Source: Methanothermobacter sp. (GTDB lineage: Archaea; Methanobacteriota; Methanobacteria; Methanobacteriales; Methanothermobacteraceae). Taken from it: a stretch of 45,130 bases of DNA. How positions within the stretch are numbered: the first letter of the stretch is position 1; each line of letters starts with the position of its first letter. Below are positions 30,797-44,773 of the stretch, in pieces. The notes under the pieces were generated by a model, which saw only the letters and a program-made list of their open reading frames with translations, made no database searches and had not been told where the DNA came from. The stretch lies in the NCBI RefSeq assembly GCF_030055435.1, contig NZ_JASFYG010000008.1:1-45130 (forward strand), in the 5' to 3' direction. The translations under genes and the position numbers were made by a program.

Positions 30797-31312
30797 ATGT
30801 CAGATTTAGGAAAAAATCTTCTAGTACGCGGAACTCAAATAAACTATTACTTCATATGTGAAACCAAATTATGGCTTTTTTCCCATAACATCCACATGGA
30901 ACATGAATCAGATCTTGTGGAAGTTGGAAGGATTTTGCACGAAGAGAGCTATCAAAGGGAAAATAAAGAATTGGTAATTGATGGTCTACTAAGTGCAGAT
31001 TTTATAAAGAAAGGTGATACGCTGGAGGTTCATGAGGTCAAGAAAAGTGCTAAAATGGAAGAGGCCCACACATTTCAGCTTCTTTACTATATCTACTATC
31101 TAAAAACCAAGAAGGCTGTAGAGGATATTAAGGGCTTTATAGACTATCCTAAACTTAGAAAAAGAAGAGAAGTGCACTTAACACCTGAAATTGAATCTAA
31201 AATAGAGAAAATTCTCGAAAAAATTGATTTAATAGTTAGAGGCGAATTTCCATCACCTAAAAAGAAGATGATATGTAAGAAGTGTGCATATAGGGAATTT
31301 TGCTGGGCTTAA
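30797..31312 (+). CDS. cas4: Cas4 iron-sulfur nuclease
   Basis: 171 residues. A RecB-like nuclease core (LEVHEVKKSAKMEEAHTFQL, with the E-V-K catalytic pair and the QLLYY helix) and the four-cysteine cluster: one Cys near the N-terminus (YYFICETKLWLF) and three at the end (ICKKCAYREFCWA). It trims and orients prespacers by PAM during acquisition. It starts 2 bases after the cas3 stop and ends 7 bases before cas1, consistent with the usual cas4-cas1-cas2 adaptation block. Confidence 0.95.
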   Translation: MSDLGKNLLVRGTQINYYFICETKLWLFSHNIHMEHESDLVEVGRILHEESYQRENKELVIDGLLSADFIKKGDTLEVHEVKKSAKMEEAHTFQLLYYIYYLKTKKAVEDIKGFIDYPKLRKRREVHLTPEIESKIEKILEKIDLIVRGEFPSPKKKMICKKCAYREFCWA

Positions 31313-31319
31313 CATTAAG

Positions 31320-33132
<1,813 letters not shown>

Positions 33133-33133
33133 G

Positions 33134-33397
33134 ATGTATCTTCTAATCGTATATGACGTCGGAGTTGAGAGGGTTAACAAGGTCAAGTCGTATCTTAGGA
33201 CAGAACTTCACTGGGTCCAGAACTCAGTATTTGAGGGCGAAGTTACTGGGAGCCAGTTCAGACGCATAGAGATGAACCTTAAGAGGATCATAGATGAGGA
33301 TAGGGACTCGGTGGTCATATACTCATTCCGGTCAGAGAGTGCATTTAAGAGAAATGTTCTTGGGGTGGAAAAATCCCCCCTTGATGTGATACTCTAG
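33134..33397 (+). CDS. cas2: Cas2, adaptation subunit
   Basis: 87 residues, ferredoxin-like fold: MYLLIVYDVGVERVNKVKSY with the conserved Asp, then LHWVQNSVFEGEVTG and SVVIYSFRSESAF. It bridges Cas1 dimers in the integration complex. ATG 33134 is preceded by GGTGGTAGG, overlapping the cas1-remnant stop. It is the only cas2 in the window, so it must serve the intact AT-rich cas1 although its composition follows the truncated one. Its last codons and stop form the first copy of a duplicated sequence (33382-33406). Confidence 0.95.
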   Translation: MYLLIVYDVGVERVNKVKSYLRTELHWVQNSVFEGEVTGSQFRRIEMNLKRIIDEDRDSVVIYSFRSESAFKRNVLGVEKSPLDVIL

Positions 33398-33466
33398 TAC
33401 ATTGGGAGGTTCTATGGTGTTCCTGATTTGCCTATGGAGCCTGATGTGATACTCTAGTACATGGGG
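33382..33466 (+). repeat. One-spacer repeat unit at the 3' end of cas2 (ectopic CRISPR-like duplication A)
   Basis: 33382-33406 and 33442-33466 are the same 25-bp sequence with one mismatch (the first 21 identical, TGATGTGATACTCTAGTACA plus T, then GGG after the mismatch). The 35 bp between (33407-33441) are unrelated. Copy 1 includes the cas2 stop codon; copy 2 is noncoding. The sequence is not the array repeat. The gap up to cas10 otherwise holds a promoter. Confidence 0.8.
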
Positions 33467-33513
33467 CTTCTCTGTGGCCCTGATCTCCTCTAGATTCAGT
33501 CACACTAAAAAAC

Positions 33514-38094: not shown

Positions 38095-39171
38095 TTGAAA
38101 TGCACTCTTAAGGTCATAACACCGGTTCACATAGGAAATGGTGTAAAGTATGGTCCCCAGGAATTCTACACAGGAAAGGGTAAGGCAGGGAGCAGAAAAC
38201 TTGAGATTTTCTCACGGGTCGATACCACCAAGCTTTACTCAAAACTTGATGAGAAAACACGGGAGGAGTTCCTTCATAATCTCACAACGCCAGAATTCGA
38301 CCTTAACGGATTCTTCAAGGGATCCCCAGCTGCTAAAAAGGCTGCAAGGGAATCTGTAAGATACAGGGGGGTTATAAAGACAAAATCCAGTCAGATAAAA
38401 GAGGTCAATGAACACATCAAGACCTCTGATGAACTCTACATACCTGGTTCATCAATAAAGGGGTCCATAAGAACAGCACTACTCTACCAGCACATCAGGG
38501 AATCTGATCTTGAAAGAATTTCAGGCGCCGTCCAGAGAAGAAGGTACCGTGATTTCCAGAGTATCATCAACGAATTCTTCTCAGCCGAATCCAGAGACGC
38601 TGCAAAGACGAGTGTAATGAGGTTCCTGCAGGTCACCGATACAGGCACGGTGAAAACTCCTCATCTGTATGAAATGAAAGTTCTGAATGCTGGGAGAGGC
38701 TCATTTGGATATAAAAAGTTCCCACTTCATCTTGAATTTATCCCCAGGACAGAACTGGAATTTGAGATGAGGTCAACGTACAGGGGGGTATATGATGGCA
38801 TCGGATTGGGGGCTCGCAAGAGGCTTGCAGATCCGGAAACAGTAATTGAGTCATTATATAGCTTTAGCAAGGACTACATTGAACATGAAATCGAATTCGC
38901 GTCAAGATACGGCATAGATTTTCTTGAGAAACTTTACACAAAACTTCGGAGTATAAACTCACCTGAAACTCCCCTCATGAGGATAGGGTATGGCAGCGGA
39001 TTCCTGGCAACCACAATCGCCCTGAGGTTCAAGGAAGAAGACCCAGCAACCTATGACTCAATAAGGAAACTTGCAGGAAGAAGAACATATCCATACGAAT
39101 TCCCAAAGACAAGGAAACTTATAAACGGTAGAACACCTCCAGGCTGGGTTAAGGTGATTTTCCATGAGTAA
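38095..39171 (+). CDS. csm5: Csm5, crRNA 3'-end subunit
   Basis: 358 residues, RAMP superfamily. MKCTLKVITPVHIGNGVKYG and ELYIPGSSIKGSIRTALLYQ are the family's typical N-terminal blocks; LMRIGYGSGFLATTIAL is the C-terminal glycine-rich loop. Caps the head of the III-A filament and helps mature the crRNA 3' end. TTG 38095 starts it, directly after the csm4 stop, with GGTGGTGG upstream. Overlaps csm6 by 8 bases. Confidence 0.92.
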   Translation: MKCTLKVITPVHIGNGVKYGPQEFYTGKGKAGSRKLEIFSRVDTTKLYSKLDEKTREEFLHNLTTPEFDLNGFFKGSPAAKKAARESVRYRGVIKTKSSQIKEVNEHIKTSDELYIPGSSIKGSIRTALLYQHIRESDLERISGAVQRRRYRDFQSIINEFFSAESRDAAKTSVMRFLQVTDTGTVKTPHLYEMKVLNAGRGSFGYKKFPLHLEFIPRTELEFEMRSTYRGVYDGIGLGARKRLADPETVIESLYSFSKDYIEHEIEFASRYGIDFLEKLYTKLRSINSPETPLMRIGYGSGFLATTIALRFKEEDPATYDSIRKLAGRRTYPYEFPKTRKLINGRTPPGWVKVIFHE

Positions 39172-40366
39172 CAGGATACTCTTCATGACAGTAGGGACCG
39201 GTGTAGGGGACTCTGAGGAGAGGGTGAGGAGCCTGGCGCATGGGCTTCTAAGTTCAATACACCACAACCGACCAGACAGGGTAATCTTCTTTGGGTCAGA
39301 TAAGAGCAGGAAAACAGTTGAGTACATATCAGAGGAAGCAGAGAGGGAGGGGAAGGACCTACCACCATATGATTTCATCGAAATTAATGATATTGACCTT
39401 GTGGGTGAGTGGTTCACGAGTATCGATGAACAGATGAAAAGGTACAGTGACGATGAGATAATAGTTGACTATACCTCTGGAACCAAGACGATGACTTCAA
39501 TAGCCTTCATAATGGCTGTCCTCTATGGAAAGGAACTTTCAGTGATATCTGGTTTCAGGGATAAAAACGGGACAGTACAGAGCGGCACAGAGACCGTGAT
39601 AAAACAGAACGTCTACCAGATCTATGATAAACTCAGAATAAGAAGGTTCAGGGAACTCTTCAACCTTGGAAGGTTTAAAACAGCCCTTGATGTCCTCAAT
39701 GAAGTTGTTCAGCATGAGAAAAAGGACGCCTACATCAAGCTGACAGAGGCTTACCTGCACTGGGACCTCTTTGACCATGAGAGGGCAATGGAGTGCCTCA
39801 ACAGTGAGGAGGTAAAGGAACTTGAGGAACTTGAGGATGTGGTGATGCGCAATAAAAAGATACTGGGCCAGATTGTGAGTTCACGTAAGGGTAAGAGAAA
39901 ATTCAGGTACAGACCATTTCTCCCGGATCTTTTTGCCAATTCTAAGCGTAGAGCCTCTGAGGGACGCTATGATGATGCTGCGGCCAGGCTCTACCGTGCA
40001 CTTGAACTGATAGCCCAGATAGTCATTGAGGAAAAGTATGGTGATGAAACCGACAGTCTGAACCCTGAGAATTACAGTCTGAGTACAAGGTCAACGCTTA
40101 AACTTGGCGCCAAGAAGCACGTGGCCCTTAAGAATGCCTACAGGTTACTTGAATGTGAAGGTTATGAGGTTGGGAAGACCTTTGGGGAGGATAAGGAGAT
40201 AATGGATCTTCTTAAGATACGTAATTACTCTATACTGGCCCATGGCCTTGATTCGGTTACAGAGGATGATTACCTGAGGTTTTATGAAAAAGTACTTGGA
40301 TATGCACGCATTATTGATGATAAGATAGACTCAAAGATAGAGGATGCCACTTTCCCTGAACTTTAG
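39164..40366 (+). CDS. csm6: Csm6, CARF-HEPN ribonuclease
   Basis: 400 residues. The N-terminal CARF domain (about 1-150) has ILFMTVGTGVG and the ligand loop DYTSGTKTMTS; the C-terminal HEPN domain has RNYSILAHG, an Rx6H active site (about residues 352-359). Binding of cyclic oligoadenylate made by Cas10 switches on nonspecific RNA cleavage. From memory, a Csm6 of this organism has been studied biochemically; I cannot verify that it is this gene. Last gene of the csm operon; a T-run (40368-40375) follows its stop. Confidence 0.93.
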   Translation: MSNRILFMTVGTGVGDSEERVRSLAHGLLSSIHHNRPDRVIFFGSDKSRKTVEYISEEAEREGKDLPPYDFIEINDIDLVGEWFTSIDEQMKRYSDDEIIVDYTSGTKTMTSIAFIMAVLYGKELSVISGFRDKNGTVQSGTETVIKQNVYQIYDKLRIRRFRELFNLGRFKTALDVLNEVVQHEKKDAYIKLTEAYLHWDLFDHERAMECLNSEEVKELEELEDVVMRNKKILGQIVSSRKGKRKFRYRPFLPDLFANSKRRASEGRYDDAAARLYRALELIAQIVIEEKYGDETDSLNPENYSLSTRSTLKLGAKKHVALKNAYRLLECEGYEVGKTFGEDKEIMDLLKIRNYSILAHGLDSVTEDDYLRFYEKVLGYARIIDDKIDSKIEDATFPEL

Positions 40367-40442: not shown

Positions 40443-40553
40443 ATGGAAGCCGAAACCGCTCTTGTAATTGGGTTCCTGATTGCCCTTGTTTTGAATCCCA
40501 TGGGCGCCCTTATACTGCTGGTGCTATTTATAATATGGTGTATCATTGATTAG
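40443..40553 (+). CDS. 36-residue predicted membrane microprotein
   Basis: ATG 40443 to TAG 40551-40553, too short for most gene callers. The peptide starts METALVIGFLIALV-like (exactly MEAETALVIGFLIALVLNPM) and continues GALILLVLFIIWCIID, i.e. two very hydrophobic segments around an NP turn, or one long helix. GGGGAT sits six bases before the ATG. It lies 76 bases after csm6 on the same strand, separated by a T-run. The last codons and stop are duplicated downstream (40598-40628). Function unknown; expression not shown. Confidence 0.5.
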   Translation: MEAETALVIGFLIALVLNPMGALILLVLFIIWCIID

Positions 40554-40628
40554 CCATTATACAAGGCTTACATCTGAAGCTGAGGAGACTTGCAACCAAT
40601 ATGGTGTATCATTGATTAGCCATTATAC
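40532..40628 (+). repeat. One-spacer repeat unit at the microprotein 3' end (ectopic CRISPR-like duplication B)
   Basis: 31 bp at 40532-40562 recur without mismatch at 40598-40628 (begins AATATGGTGTATCATT, ends TAGCCATTATAC). The 35 bp between (40563-40597) are unrelated. Period 66 equals the commonest period of the main array (30-bp repeat plus 36-bp spacer), yet the duplicated sequence is not the array repeat; it is the end of the small gene before it. Confidence 0.93.
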
Positions 40629-40680
40629 TCTTTTAAATTGTTTAATAGCTGTCACTGATCCATGCAGATGGTTTAATGAG

Positions 40681-40769
40681 TCTAGTGACGCATTGTAGAT
40701 GCAAAATACAGGCTCCACACACCCTACAAGCATCCAGCTGGATCCAGTGACGCATTTTAGATGCAAAAT
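40681..40769 (+). repeat. One-spacer repeat unit upstream of the leader (ectopic CRISPR-like duplication C)
   Basis: 40681-40707 and 40743-40769 are the same 27-bp sequence with two mismatches (core AGTGACGCATT, then TAGATGCAAAAT). The 35 bp between (40708-40742) are unrelated. Period 62. The target is noncoding and again unlike the array repeat. Confidence 0.8.
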
Positions 40770-41425
40770 CTGATTTTTTCATTTTTTGGGGGGGTCTGAC
40801 TGATCGGAATGGTTTGAAGGCCTAACATTTTTAATTTTTTTATTTGGATTTCACAGTTCATCTTAAAAGAATCTAGATGCATCAAACAGCTTTTTATTGT
40901 ATACTATATCTTCTAGCTGTTCCCGTATCTCATTTAGTTATTTAGAGCTATTTTAATCACCTGATTTATAATGATGAGATATTATAAGGCTTTATTAAGA
41001 TTCTAACAATCGTTTATAGGTTTAAATATAAAAATTAGGCATTAAAGATTTTTATTCTAGCTATATCACACCATAAAATTTTAAATTATCATTTAAATAC
41101 TTTATAAATCTTTTATCTTCATTCAGAGCCTTTTCAGAGGTTCGTTTTTGACGGTTTTTTCACAAGTGTCTTATAGTAACTAAATGTTATTTTAAGCCTC
41201 TTTTATAATTAAAAGACATTATATTTGATTTTTGAATTTTTATCTTGTTAAAATATTTTTCATGTTATTTTGGATTTATTTAACGCTTTATTTTTGAACT
41301 CAGAGCCCTTACAGGAAGTCGTCTGTCAATATAAATGAACTGCATTATCGGGGATCGACAAATTTATAAGTCTGAAAGGAGAAATTTCAGAGTGATACAG
41401 GCCAAATAGAGAAAAAATCCGCCCT
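40770..41425 (+). promoter_or_regulatory. CRISPR leader
   Basis: About 650 bp of strongly AT-rich DNA without a gene, directly before the first repeat, on the side from which this repeat orientation (ending ATTGAAAT) is transcribed. AAATTTATAAG (41360-41370 region) is the likely TATA box, putting the pre-crRNA start near 41390. A 7-bp hairpin, TCTGAAA (41371-41377) and TTTCAGA (41385-41391), lies next to it. The last 14 bases, AAAAAATCCGCCCT, recur almost unchanged before the orphan repeat at 32301. Confidence 0.8.
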
Positions 41426-44400
41426 GTTAAAATCAGACCAAAATGGGATTGAAATGATTTTGTCCGGGGTGTGTCCTGGCCTCCTTTCCCTGTTAAAATC
41501 AGACCAAAATGGGATTGAAATGTATAACTGGCCATCCCCTCAATATCCACCCATCCAGTTAAAATCAGACCAAAATGGGATTGAAATGGAGGAGATCCTG
41601 GATGAAATGAACCGTGATTATATCGTTAAAATCAGACCAAAATGGGATTGAAATCTGTGACCTGACTGATCTCCATTACCTTCTCGAAGAGTTAAAATCA
41701 GACCAAAATGGGATTGAAATGTTAACCCTGAGAGTTCTGTTGTCGCGGCTCCGGGTTCGTTAAAATCAGACCAAAATGGGATTGAAATCTGGTCCCAGGC
41801 CATCTTCAACTGCTGGAAGGCGAACTTGTTAAAATCAGACCAAAATGGGATTGAAATGAATATGGGGGCTATCGCAACGTTAAGGCAGACCGCGGGTTAA
41901 AATCAGACCAAAATGGGATTGAAATCCTTCAACGTATACCATGCGGATTCAAGACCATAATGGTTAAAATCAGACCAAAATGGGATTGAAATAAGTCTAC
42001 GCTCACCCTTCTAATATGGTCTCGGATAGGGTTAAAATCAGACCAAAATGGGATTGAAATGTGTGCCCCTATGATGTACCCGACCCATCCGAGCTGGTTA
42101 AAATCAGACCAAAATGGGATTGAAATCTTTGAATGTGGGGGCTGCCTGTGAGTAGTATTCCCGTTAAAATCAGACCAAAATGGGATTGAAATATAACGGC
42201 TCTTTCAAGGTAATCGTTGGGTGCTGTGTTAAAATCAGACCAAAATGGGATTGAAATGCACCCCCCGGATCCCGGTGGGGGCGTTCGCGGCGAGTTAAAA
42301 TCAGACCAAAATGGGATTGAAATCTGTTCACCTTCACCCAACGTTTCTGGTTCCCTGAGGAGTTAAAATCAGACCAAAATGGGATTGAAATACTCTCATC
42401 CACGACCACCGGGGACCCCATACCCTTCAAGTGAAAATGTTAAAATCAGACCAAAATGGGATTGAAATTCCCTGGTGTCGTTCACTGGGAATGATATGTA
42501 TCCGTTAAAATCAGACCAAAATGGGATTGAAATATAAGATATTTCGGATTTAAAAAGGAGGCCAGCTTCGGGTTAAAATCAGACCAAAATGGGATTGAAA
42601 TCTGATACGCCCCCGAACCTCCTCAAGGGCTTCAACGTTAAAATCAGACCAAAATGGGATTGAAATAACCAATCCGAACCTGCAAACACCCCCCGAACCC
42701 CCGGTTAAAATCAGACCAAAATGGGATTGAAATCTTAAAGGATACCTCCGGAATGTCCGGCTCTACAACACAGCGTTAAAATCAGACCAAAATGGGATTG
42801 AAATCAATACCGGTCTCCTCAATTATGTCAAGGACGTCGTATAGGTTAAAATCAGACCAAAATGGGATTGAAATTTACGTGTTAACGTTAAGATTAGGAG
42901 GGATGCCTAGTTAAAATCAGACCAAAATGGGATTGAAATCAACATATGTTTATACAATATTTTTAGAATATTTTAGTTAAAATCAGACCAAAATGGGATT
43001 GAAATGATCATATGAATCTCCATCAAGTTCATCCAAATTAGTTAAAATCAGACCAAAATGGGATTGAAATTTCATCGTCCGCGAGTACTCTGCGGGGGGG
43101 ATTACGAGTTAAAATCAGACCAAAATGGGATTGAAATTAAAAATTCACATATATCGTTTATATCTTCTTCATATTCCTGGTTAAAATCAGACCAAAATGG
43201 GATTGAAATTTAGTAAGGGTCGCATTCCATTTCCCTGTATTAAGTTAAAATCAGACCAAAATGGGATTGAAATCTTTTATCCCTGAGATTTCATAAACCT
43301 TTTCAGCTATGTTAAAATCAGACCAAAATGGGATTGAAATGATTATCATGATGATCAGGTTGATGCTTCGAGTGGAGTTAAAATCAGACCAAAATGGGAT
43401 TGAAATTTTATGAACTCATATCTTTTTTCATTGAATATTCGTTGTTAAAATCAGACCAAAATGGGATTGAAATTTTATCTGGACTTCCTCTCCGTCCATA
43501 TAATATTTTAGTTAAAATCAGACCAAAATGGGATTGAAATTCATTATTGAAGTTGTATCCTCCACCGAAATCACCAGTTAAAATCAGACCAAAATGGGAT
43601 TGAAATCAGCATAGGTTGATGGGATCACGGATCTCCTGAATAGGTTAAAATCAGACCAAAATGGGATTGAAATGTAGACATCGCTGACATCTATGAAGAT
43701 GGAGAAATGGTTAAAATCAGACCAAAATGGGATTGAAATCAAACGTGTTCCTCTCCTCAGGGGTTGTAACGTATCGTTAAAATCAGACCAAAATGGGATT
43801 GAAATACGTTGGGAATAACACAGGCTTAATCTGGCTGGGTTCAAGTTAAAATCAGACCAAAATGGGATTGAAATGGACTTCTATACTGTCTATCCGCGCC
43901 CCCTGTGGTATGCGTTAAAATCAGACCAAAATGGGATTGAAATCAAAGGACTGACTTTATACGTGAACAATGGTGCTCGTAGGTTAAAATCAGACCAAAA
44001 TGGGATTGAAATCTTGTTCAACTATGTCGCATGGGACTTCATCAGGTGTTGCTGGTTAAAATCAGACCAAAATGGGATTGAAATTCATTGGAGCTTTAAC
44101 TGGCAATCCAGCCCTTATAAGGGTTAAAATCAGACCAAAATGGGATTGAAATGTGAAACACTCGCAGGCATCATCCTCCACCACCTAAGTTAAAATCAGA
44201 CCAAAATGGGATTGAAATATGACAAAACACAAACAAAAACAAGACAAGACAAGACAAGACAAGTTAAAATCAGACCAAAATGGGATTGAAATATTCTTTT
44301 CTTAACCATCGAGACAGTTGCTGGGTGTCGTGTGATTGTTAAAATCAGACCAAAATGGGATTGAAATTGTTTTTTTGGTGGTTTTTTGTTTTGTTTTGTG

Positions 44401-44773
44401 TTTTGTTAAAATCAGACCAAAATGGGATTGAAATCGCTTCGAATATGGGAAGATACGTGCTTGACGTGCAAGTTAAAATCAGACCAAAATGGGATTGAAA
44501 TTTTTGGCTAAGGCACTCTATCCTTCCTTCTTTTCACTTGTTAAAATCAGACCAAAATGGGATTGAAATGATGTTATTCATTATCTTGAACATCTGGCAG
44601 ATGATGTGTTAAAATCAGACCAAAATGGGATTGAAATGTAGAAGTAGTATCTCCCGTGTTCCCCTATGATGTACGTTAAAATCAGACCAAAATGGGATTG
44701 AAATCATGGATATAAAGTCTCCATCGGCGTCCCATGGCTTATCGTTAAAATCAGACCAAAATGGGATTGAAAT
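41426..44773 (+). CRISPR. CRISPR array, 50 repeats and 49 spacers
   Basis: I counted 50 copies of one 30-bp repeat, first at 41426-41455 and last at 44744-44773, and found no variant, not even at the distal end. Spacers are mostly 34-39 bp, with long ones at 42392-42438 (47 bp), 44219-44262 (44 bp) and 44293-44337 (45 bp). The transcription direction (+) is the same as the cas genes. Cas6 cleavage should leave the tag AUUGAAAU. Spacer composition ranges from GC-rich to very AT-rich, so several sources are likely. I could not search spacers against viruses or plasmids. Confidence 0.99.

Follow-up and report, generated by a model that had tools for sequence, protein, structure and literature searches.

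A 31-bp sequence duplicated exactly around a 35-nt insert, beside the CRISPR-Cas genes of a Methanothermobacter sp., a thermophilic methanogenic archaeon, is in our estimation (roughly 90% probability) the scar left by the host's own Cas1-Cas2 in one off-target integration of a spacer, that is, a neo-CRISPR unit of one spacer. This unit, here called unit B, lies between a csm6-like gene and the leader of the canonical array in the 45,130-nucleotide stretch of DNA that was analyzed as a whole (the window; Table 1). We observed the duplication, a novel insert, its source and the accompanying protospacer adjacent motif (PAM), an empty site, intact cas1 and cas2 genes and units of like size in sister species, and infer from them, without direct observation, that Cas1-Cas2 was the agent of insertion.

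Structure of the duplication and its insert

The two copies of the repeat, AATATGGTGTATCATTGATTAGCCATTATAC, recur at a period of 66 bp, and the chance expectation for an exact 31-mer at a spacing of 60 to 75 bp is ~6e-12 in the source genome (G000). The first-pass annotation had described perfect 31-bp repeats around 35 bp, with the period of the main array and derived from the end of a 36-codon gene, and in each respect the description holds. The canonical array likewise has a period of 66 bp, with 30-bp repeats and spacers of 34–47 nt, most commonly 36 (12 spacers), 37 (11) or 38 (8), and the unit B repeat covers the 3' end of the small open reading frame (ORF). Since the stop codon (40551–40553) falls inside copy 1, the 36-codon ORF is intact despite the duplication; a Pfam search with its product returned no match.

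The last base of copy 1 (C40562) also matches the base found just before the insert sequence at its source, which puts the length of the duplication at either 30 or 31 bp, the shorter alternative spanning 40532–40561 and leaving C40562 as a possible part of the spacer. Compared with its source, the insert has since lost one base (TCTGGAAG to TCTGAAG), which implies an original length of 36 or 37 nt. A neo-CRISPR unit is expected to combine a duplication of about repeat length (30 bp) with a spacer-length insert foreign to the site. Unit B has both, the insert falling within the range of the array spacers and being absent from the sister-species genome G003.

Empty site in a sister species

In a genus-wide search of a comparison set with one genome per species, the left flank plus one copy (G003:C1 611861–612041) and one copy plus the right flank (612016–612093) matched overlapping stretches of G003. 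The alignment at this site reads ...TTTATAATATGGTGTATCATTGATTAGCCATAGGGTACCTTTTAA..., with a single copy of the target and no insert. We take it to be the same locus because the csm6-like protein of G003 is 97% identical to that of the window. An uninterrupted target had been proposed as a check in sister strains and is here present in a sister species; the two findings that would have refuted the proposal, conservation of the unit in sister genomes and an insert colinear with the ancestral sequence of the locus, do not apply, as unit B is missing from the sisters and the G003 site is without the insert.

Source of the insert and PAM

The insert matches one other place in its own genome, on the minus strand of contig C6 (37 of 38 positions with a 1-bp deletion, E = 8e-12), and a counterpart in G004 with a single 1-bp gap (97%; Table 1). 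It was the only one of 27 inserts tested to give a strong own-genome match. The source sequence sits within a 182-aa ORF for which Pfam and PHROG searches gave no match, in an accessory stretch that, of 8 genomes, only G000 and G004 possess. Encoded ~2 kb away is a phage-type integrase of 396 aa (PF00589), 30% identical over 397 aa to the psiM2 integrase, parts of the region also turn up at other places in G000, G004 and G007, and a 96-bp piece of it resembles an M. tenebrarum plasmid (76%); we infer that the source region is an integrated mobile element. The recommended search of the insert against viruses, plasmids and host gave the predicted outcome, the host genome supplying a source with a PAM; phages, plasmids and viral contigs supplied no match. 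The Methanobacterium viruses PhiF3 (L179:32187–32501) and Drs3 (L182:1477–1788) have genes annotated as CRISPR-associated (Csx16 family; Cas_VVA1548).

We extracted 209 spacers from the arrays of G000, G003, G005 and G007 and compared them with Methanothermobacter viruses and sister sequence. All nine near-perfect protospacers (94–100% identity), which correspond to G005 spacers on psiM2 or psiM100, have CC two and three bases upstream, as does an 82% match of one G007 spacer. Judged from these alignments, CCN is the PAM of the array repeat family common to G000 and G005. By inference, the repeat sequence and the psiM2 and psiM100 matches of sister-species spacers also assign G000 to Methanothermobacter or its vicinity. 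The unit B source reads GAACTCCCC / AAGGCTTAC, with the 5' flank CTCCCC and hence CCC directly before it, and fits CCN whether the spacer begins at A or at the preceding C, with the caveat that a CCN flank alone arises by chance at ~1/16. The insert therefore also has the expected origin in other DNA beside the PAM of the system. Its PAM end faces copy 1 (relative to the plus strand), the same orientation as in the main array.

Adaptation genes and the canonical array

Adaptation genes, a further expectation for a neo-CRISPR unit, are present: Cas1, Cas2, Cas7, Cas8b and Cas3 were all found in the source genome, and the adaptation module (cas1 plus cas2) is seemingly complete. The canonical array begins 0.8 kb downstream of unit B. 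Resemblance of the insertion site to the leader-repeat junction, elsewhere a preference and not a strict requirement, is the one expectation not met, the unit B target giving no alignment to leader or repeat better than shuffled sequence. Classification of unit B as a canonical CRISPR array was rejected, its repeat being unrelated to GTTAAAATCAGACCAAAATGGGATTGAAAT and leader similarity absent.

The CRISPR-Cas genes and arrays of this genome have other features of note. A lone canonical repeat (32301–32330) stands between two cas1 genes, the second of which (32326–33129, 69% identical) has no start and is fused to CRISPR repeat sequence, which looks like the product of a type I-B module recombining into an older module. 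A duplication also affects the 3' end of cas2 (33382–33477; 21 bp exact, period 60), and the same structure in G003 indicates that it predates the split of the two. Two low-complexity spacers lie close together in the main array (44219–44404; CAAGA repeats and T/G-rich TTTTG repeats), and a second canonical array of 40 repeats (G000:C2:243087–245793) has one spacer nearly identical to spacer 40 of the window array.

Table 1. Features of unit B and the surrounding CRISPR-Cas locus, in window coordinates
Feature	Position	Strand	Basis or remark
cas1, type I-B module	31284..32288	+	PF01867, E 4.9e-87
cas2	33134..33397	+	PF09827, E 1.2e-21
csm6-like gene, directly upstream of the unit B interval	39164..40366	+	Pfam Csm6 HEPN PF09670, E 3.9e-41
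Small hydrophobic ORF, 36 aa, MEAETALVIGFLIALVLNPMGALILLVLFIIWCIID then stop	40443..40553	+	Translation; kept in G003
Unit B copy 1 (duplicated target)	40532..40562	+	Exact repeat of 40598–40628; single, uninterrupted in G003:C1:612016 onward
Unit B insert AAGGCTTACATCTGAAGCTGAGGAGACTTGCAACC, spacer-like, 35 nt	40563..40597	+	97% match to G000:C6:38716-38753(-), G004:C8:75932-75969(+)
Unit B copy 2 (duplicated target)	40598..40628	+	Exact repeat of copy 1
Unit A, older and decayed, ~30 bp duplicated around ~32 bp, period 62	40678..40770	+	G003 without unit in this register
Leader of canonical array	41226..41425	+	Final ~110 bases conserved ahead of two G000 arrays and of arrays in G003 and G005
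Canonical CRISPR array, 30-bp repeat, 49 spacers	41426..44773	+	Repeat detection, spacer-length count

Similar units in the genus

Unit B is not alone in the ~1,060-bp interval from csm6 to the leader, which in the window also holds the decayed unit A. In the G003 interval, ~75 bp away, two copies of GTTTTACTGCTGCATATCATGAYTCATTGC (30 bp, differing at one position) flank 36 nt; their register is not that of unit A, so that the two represent separate events. In the G005 interval, a local sequence occurs four times at periods of 65, 65 and 77, enclosing three different spacers. No source match was found for the inserts of unit A, the G003 unit or the G005 units, and an exact search of viral contigs with the unit A insert, the G003 insert and a single G005 spacer out of three returned nothing.

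G007 provides a second case, in which an exact 29-bp duplication surrounds a 37-nt insert (G007:C1:1355735) within a gene for a surface-type repeat protein (the protein type is our reading of the sequence) that now forms two ORFs. The orthologous sites in G001, G002, G003, G005 and G006 are uninterrupted, and at these five empty sites the flanking matches overlap by 28–29 bp. The insert matches G007:C1:1084946–1084985 in its own genome (98% over 40 nt). Two further G007 units nearby, with duplications and inserts of 30+37 and 30+38, have neither a source nor a clear empty site.

Across the G000 genome, direct-repeat pairs number 18 at 60–69 bp versus 8 at 50–59 bp and none at 70–79 bp. Two of the 18 fall in the csm6-leader interval, for which the Poisson probability is 6.5e-5, a rough figure only since the 18 include minisatellites. 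We did not count the 60–69 bp excess as proof of many integrations, since sister alignments reveal a mixture. Pairs C3:103067 and C7:31082 are minisatellites, C5:59115 and G003:C2:86143 recur with the same insert, and C1:328767 (26+39), C1:155458 (~30+34), C5:110939 (27+39) and C3:156883 have an empty site in sisters and inserts for which no convincing source was found. C1:107694 is another example among the excess pairs. A control without cas1 (G022; one noisy 369-kb stretch of 25% G+C) showed no peak at 60–69, its four 10-bp bins between 50 and 89 containing 12, 12, 16 and 15 pairs. Elsewhere in G000, a degenerate array of GCTGTGACTTTAATGTACATG repeats (G000:C2:37253) includes one insert with 20 exact bases in common with a conserved gene (C4:20235–20264).

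It is an evenly balanced question whether ectopic Cas1-Cas2 integration is recurrent and lasting in Methanothermobacter, with the csm6-leader interval as a hotspot where unrelated local sequence gives rise to new arrays that may expand to several spacers, as the four repeats and three spacers of G005 would exemplify, so that arrays are seen being born.

Origin of unit B

Templated repair, in which the ends of a staggered double-strand break are filled in and sealed with a short copy of another genomic site between them, would also leave a duplication with filler from another locus, and the unit B filler does match another locus. It does not, however, predict that duplications of 29–31 bp with fillers of 35–38 nt should recur (unit B, the G003 unit and three G007 units), that the source should have a PAM or that such units should cluster beside CRISPR loci, and we consider it very unlikely. 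The occurrence of repeats in the csm6-leader interval of several species might point to a regulatory repeat under conservation, or to a separate CRISPR array belonging to the type III module, but the local sequences differ from species to species, so that no repeat is inherited, and this explanation is less likely still.

A minisatellite origin, by tandem duplication of 66 bp followed by divergence or by loss of the outer part, draws on the many tandem repeats of period 46–69 in G000 and on several candidate pairs elsewhere that proved to be of this kind. Both copies of the unit B repeat are exact, however, and a locally duplicated unit is contradicted by the absence of the insert at the G003 empty site and by its distant source, making this the least credible of the alternatives. 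Transposon insertion was likewise rejected; the 35-nt insert is too short to encode a transposase and no terminal inverted repeat was apparent on reading.

The first-pass annotation had attributed unit B to a single Cas1-Cas2 insertion into a 30-bp non-CRISPR target, and this attribution is supported by the source with its CCC flank, the G003 empty site and the units of like size in G003, G005 and G007. Under Cas1-Cas2 integration, a ~36-bp fragment would have been cut beside a CCN PAM from the mobile element, either the copy still in the genome or an incoming relative. Two staggered strand transfers would have placed this fragment at the 3' end of the small gene, between csm6 and the leader. 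Gap filling would then have duplicated the ~30 bp between the two nicks. No function has been demonstrated for the resulting unit, which we infer to be probably inert: its repeat does not resemble that of the canonical array, and its target lies in the same genome, where an active spacer against a PAM-bearing target should be harmful. The 1-bp loss from the insert fits unselected sequence.

Relation to known off-target integration

Off-target spacer integration is established in E. coli, where the products are known as neo-CRISPR loci (Nivala, Shipman and Church 2018, to the extent covered in PMC11788318 and PMC9456107). Unit B resembles these loci in having spacer-sized DNA outside an array and a target duplication of repeat length. 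It differs in being a natural unit of an archaeal type I-B system, in having an identified source, PAM and empty site, in a target dissimilar to the leader-repeat junction and in the presence of several units near the CRISPR locus of sister species. The E. coli study is said to have included putative natural cases as well, among them Yersinia pestis and Sulfolobus islandicus.

S. thermophilus Cas1-Cas2 integrates pre-spacers in vitro at a low level into non-CRISPR plasmid sites, favoring those that are leader-repeat-like, and in CRISPR adaptation gap repair is known to duplicate the target (PMC6895254). Unit B would likewise represent the joining of a spacer to non-CRISPR DNA by Cas1-Cas2, but whereas the S. 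thermophilus products are likely half-site, formed in vitro and sequence-preferring, unit B sits in a genome and is complete, with both ends joined. An effect of IHF-like motifs is reported for E. coli (PMC9456107). The lack of leader or repeat likeness in the unit B target is a misfit with both this effect and the S. thermophilus site preference; as a guess, proximity or DNA shape may be what matters for integration next to the leader in Methanothermobacter. Unit B agrees with the type I-B array of the same locus in period, repeat length, spacer length, PAM and spacer orientation, and differs from it in having an unrelated repeat, no leader motif and only one spacer.

The expectation that such a unit would be notable in an archaeon is tempered by off-target integration being already established and by the putative Sulfolobus islandicus case; unit B is a new natural case, unusually well documented. 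That such units recur close to the CRISPR locus of sister species would be a more novel claim than unit B itself, and could as readily fail as hold.

Few natural cases have so far been available to inform the origin of CRISPR arrays and the natural misfire rate of Cas1-Cas2. Unit B can be assigned a source, a PAM, a target and an empty site, like events appear to recur close to the CRISPR locus of sister species, and one such event apparently split a gene in G007. Comparison of strains makes the rate, site choice and fate of misplaced spacers directly testable in Methanothermobacter.
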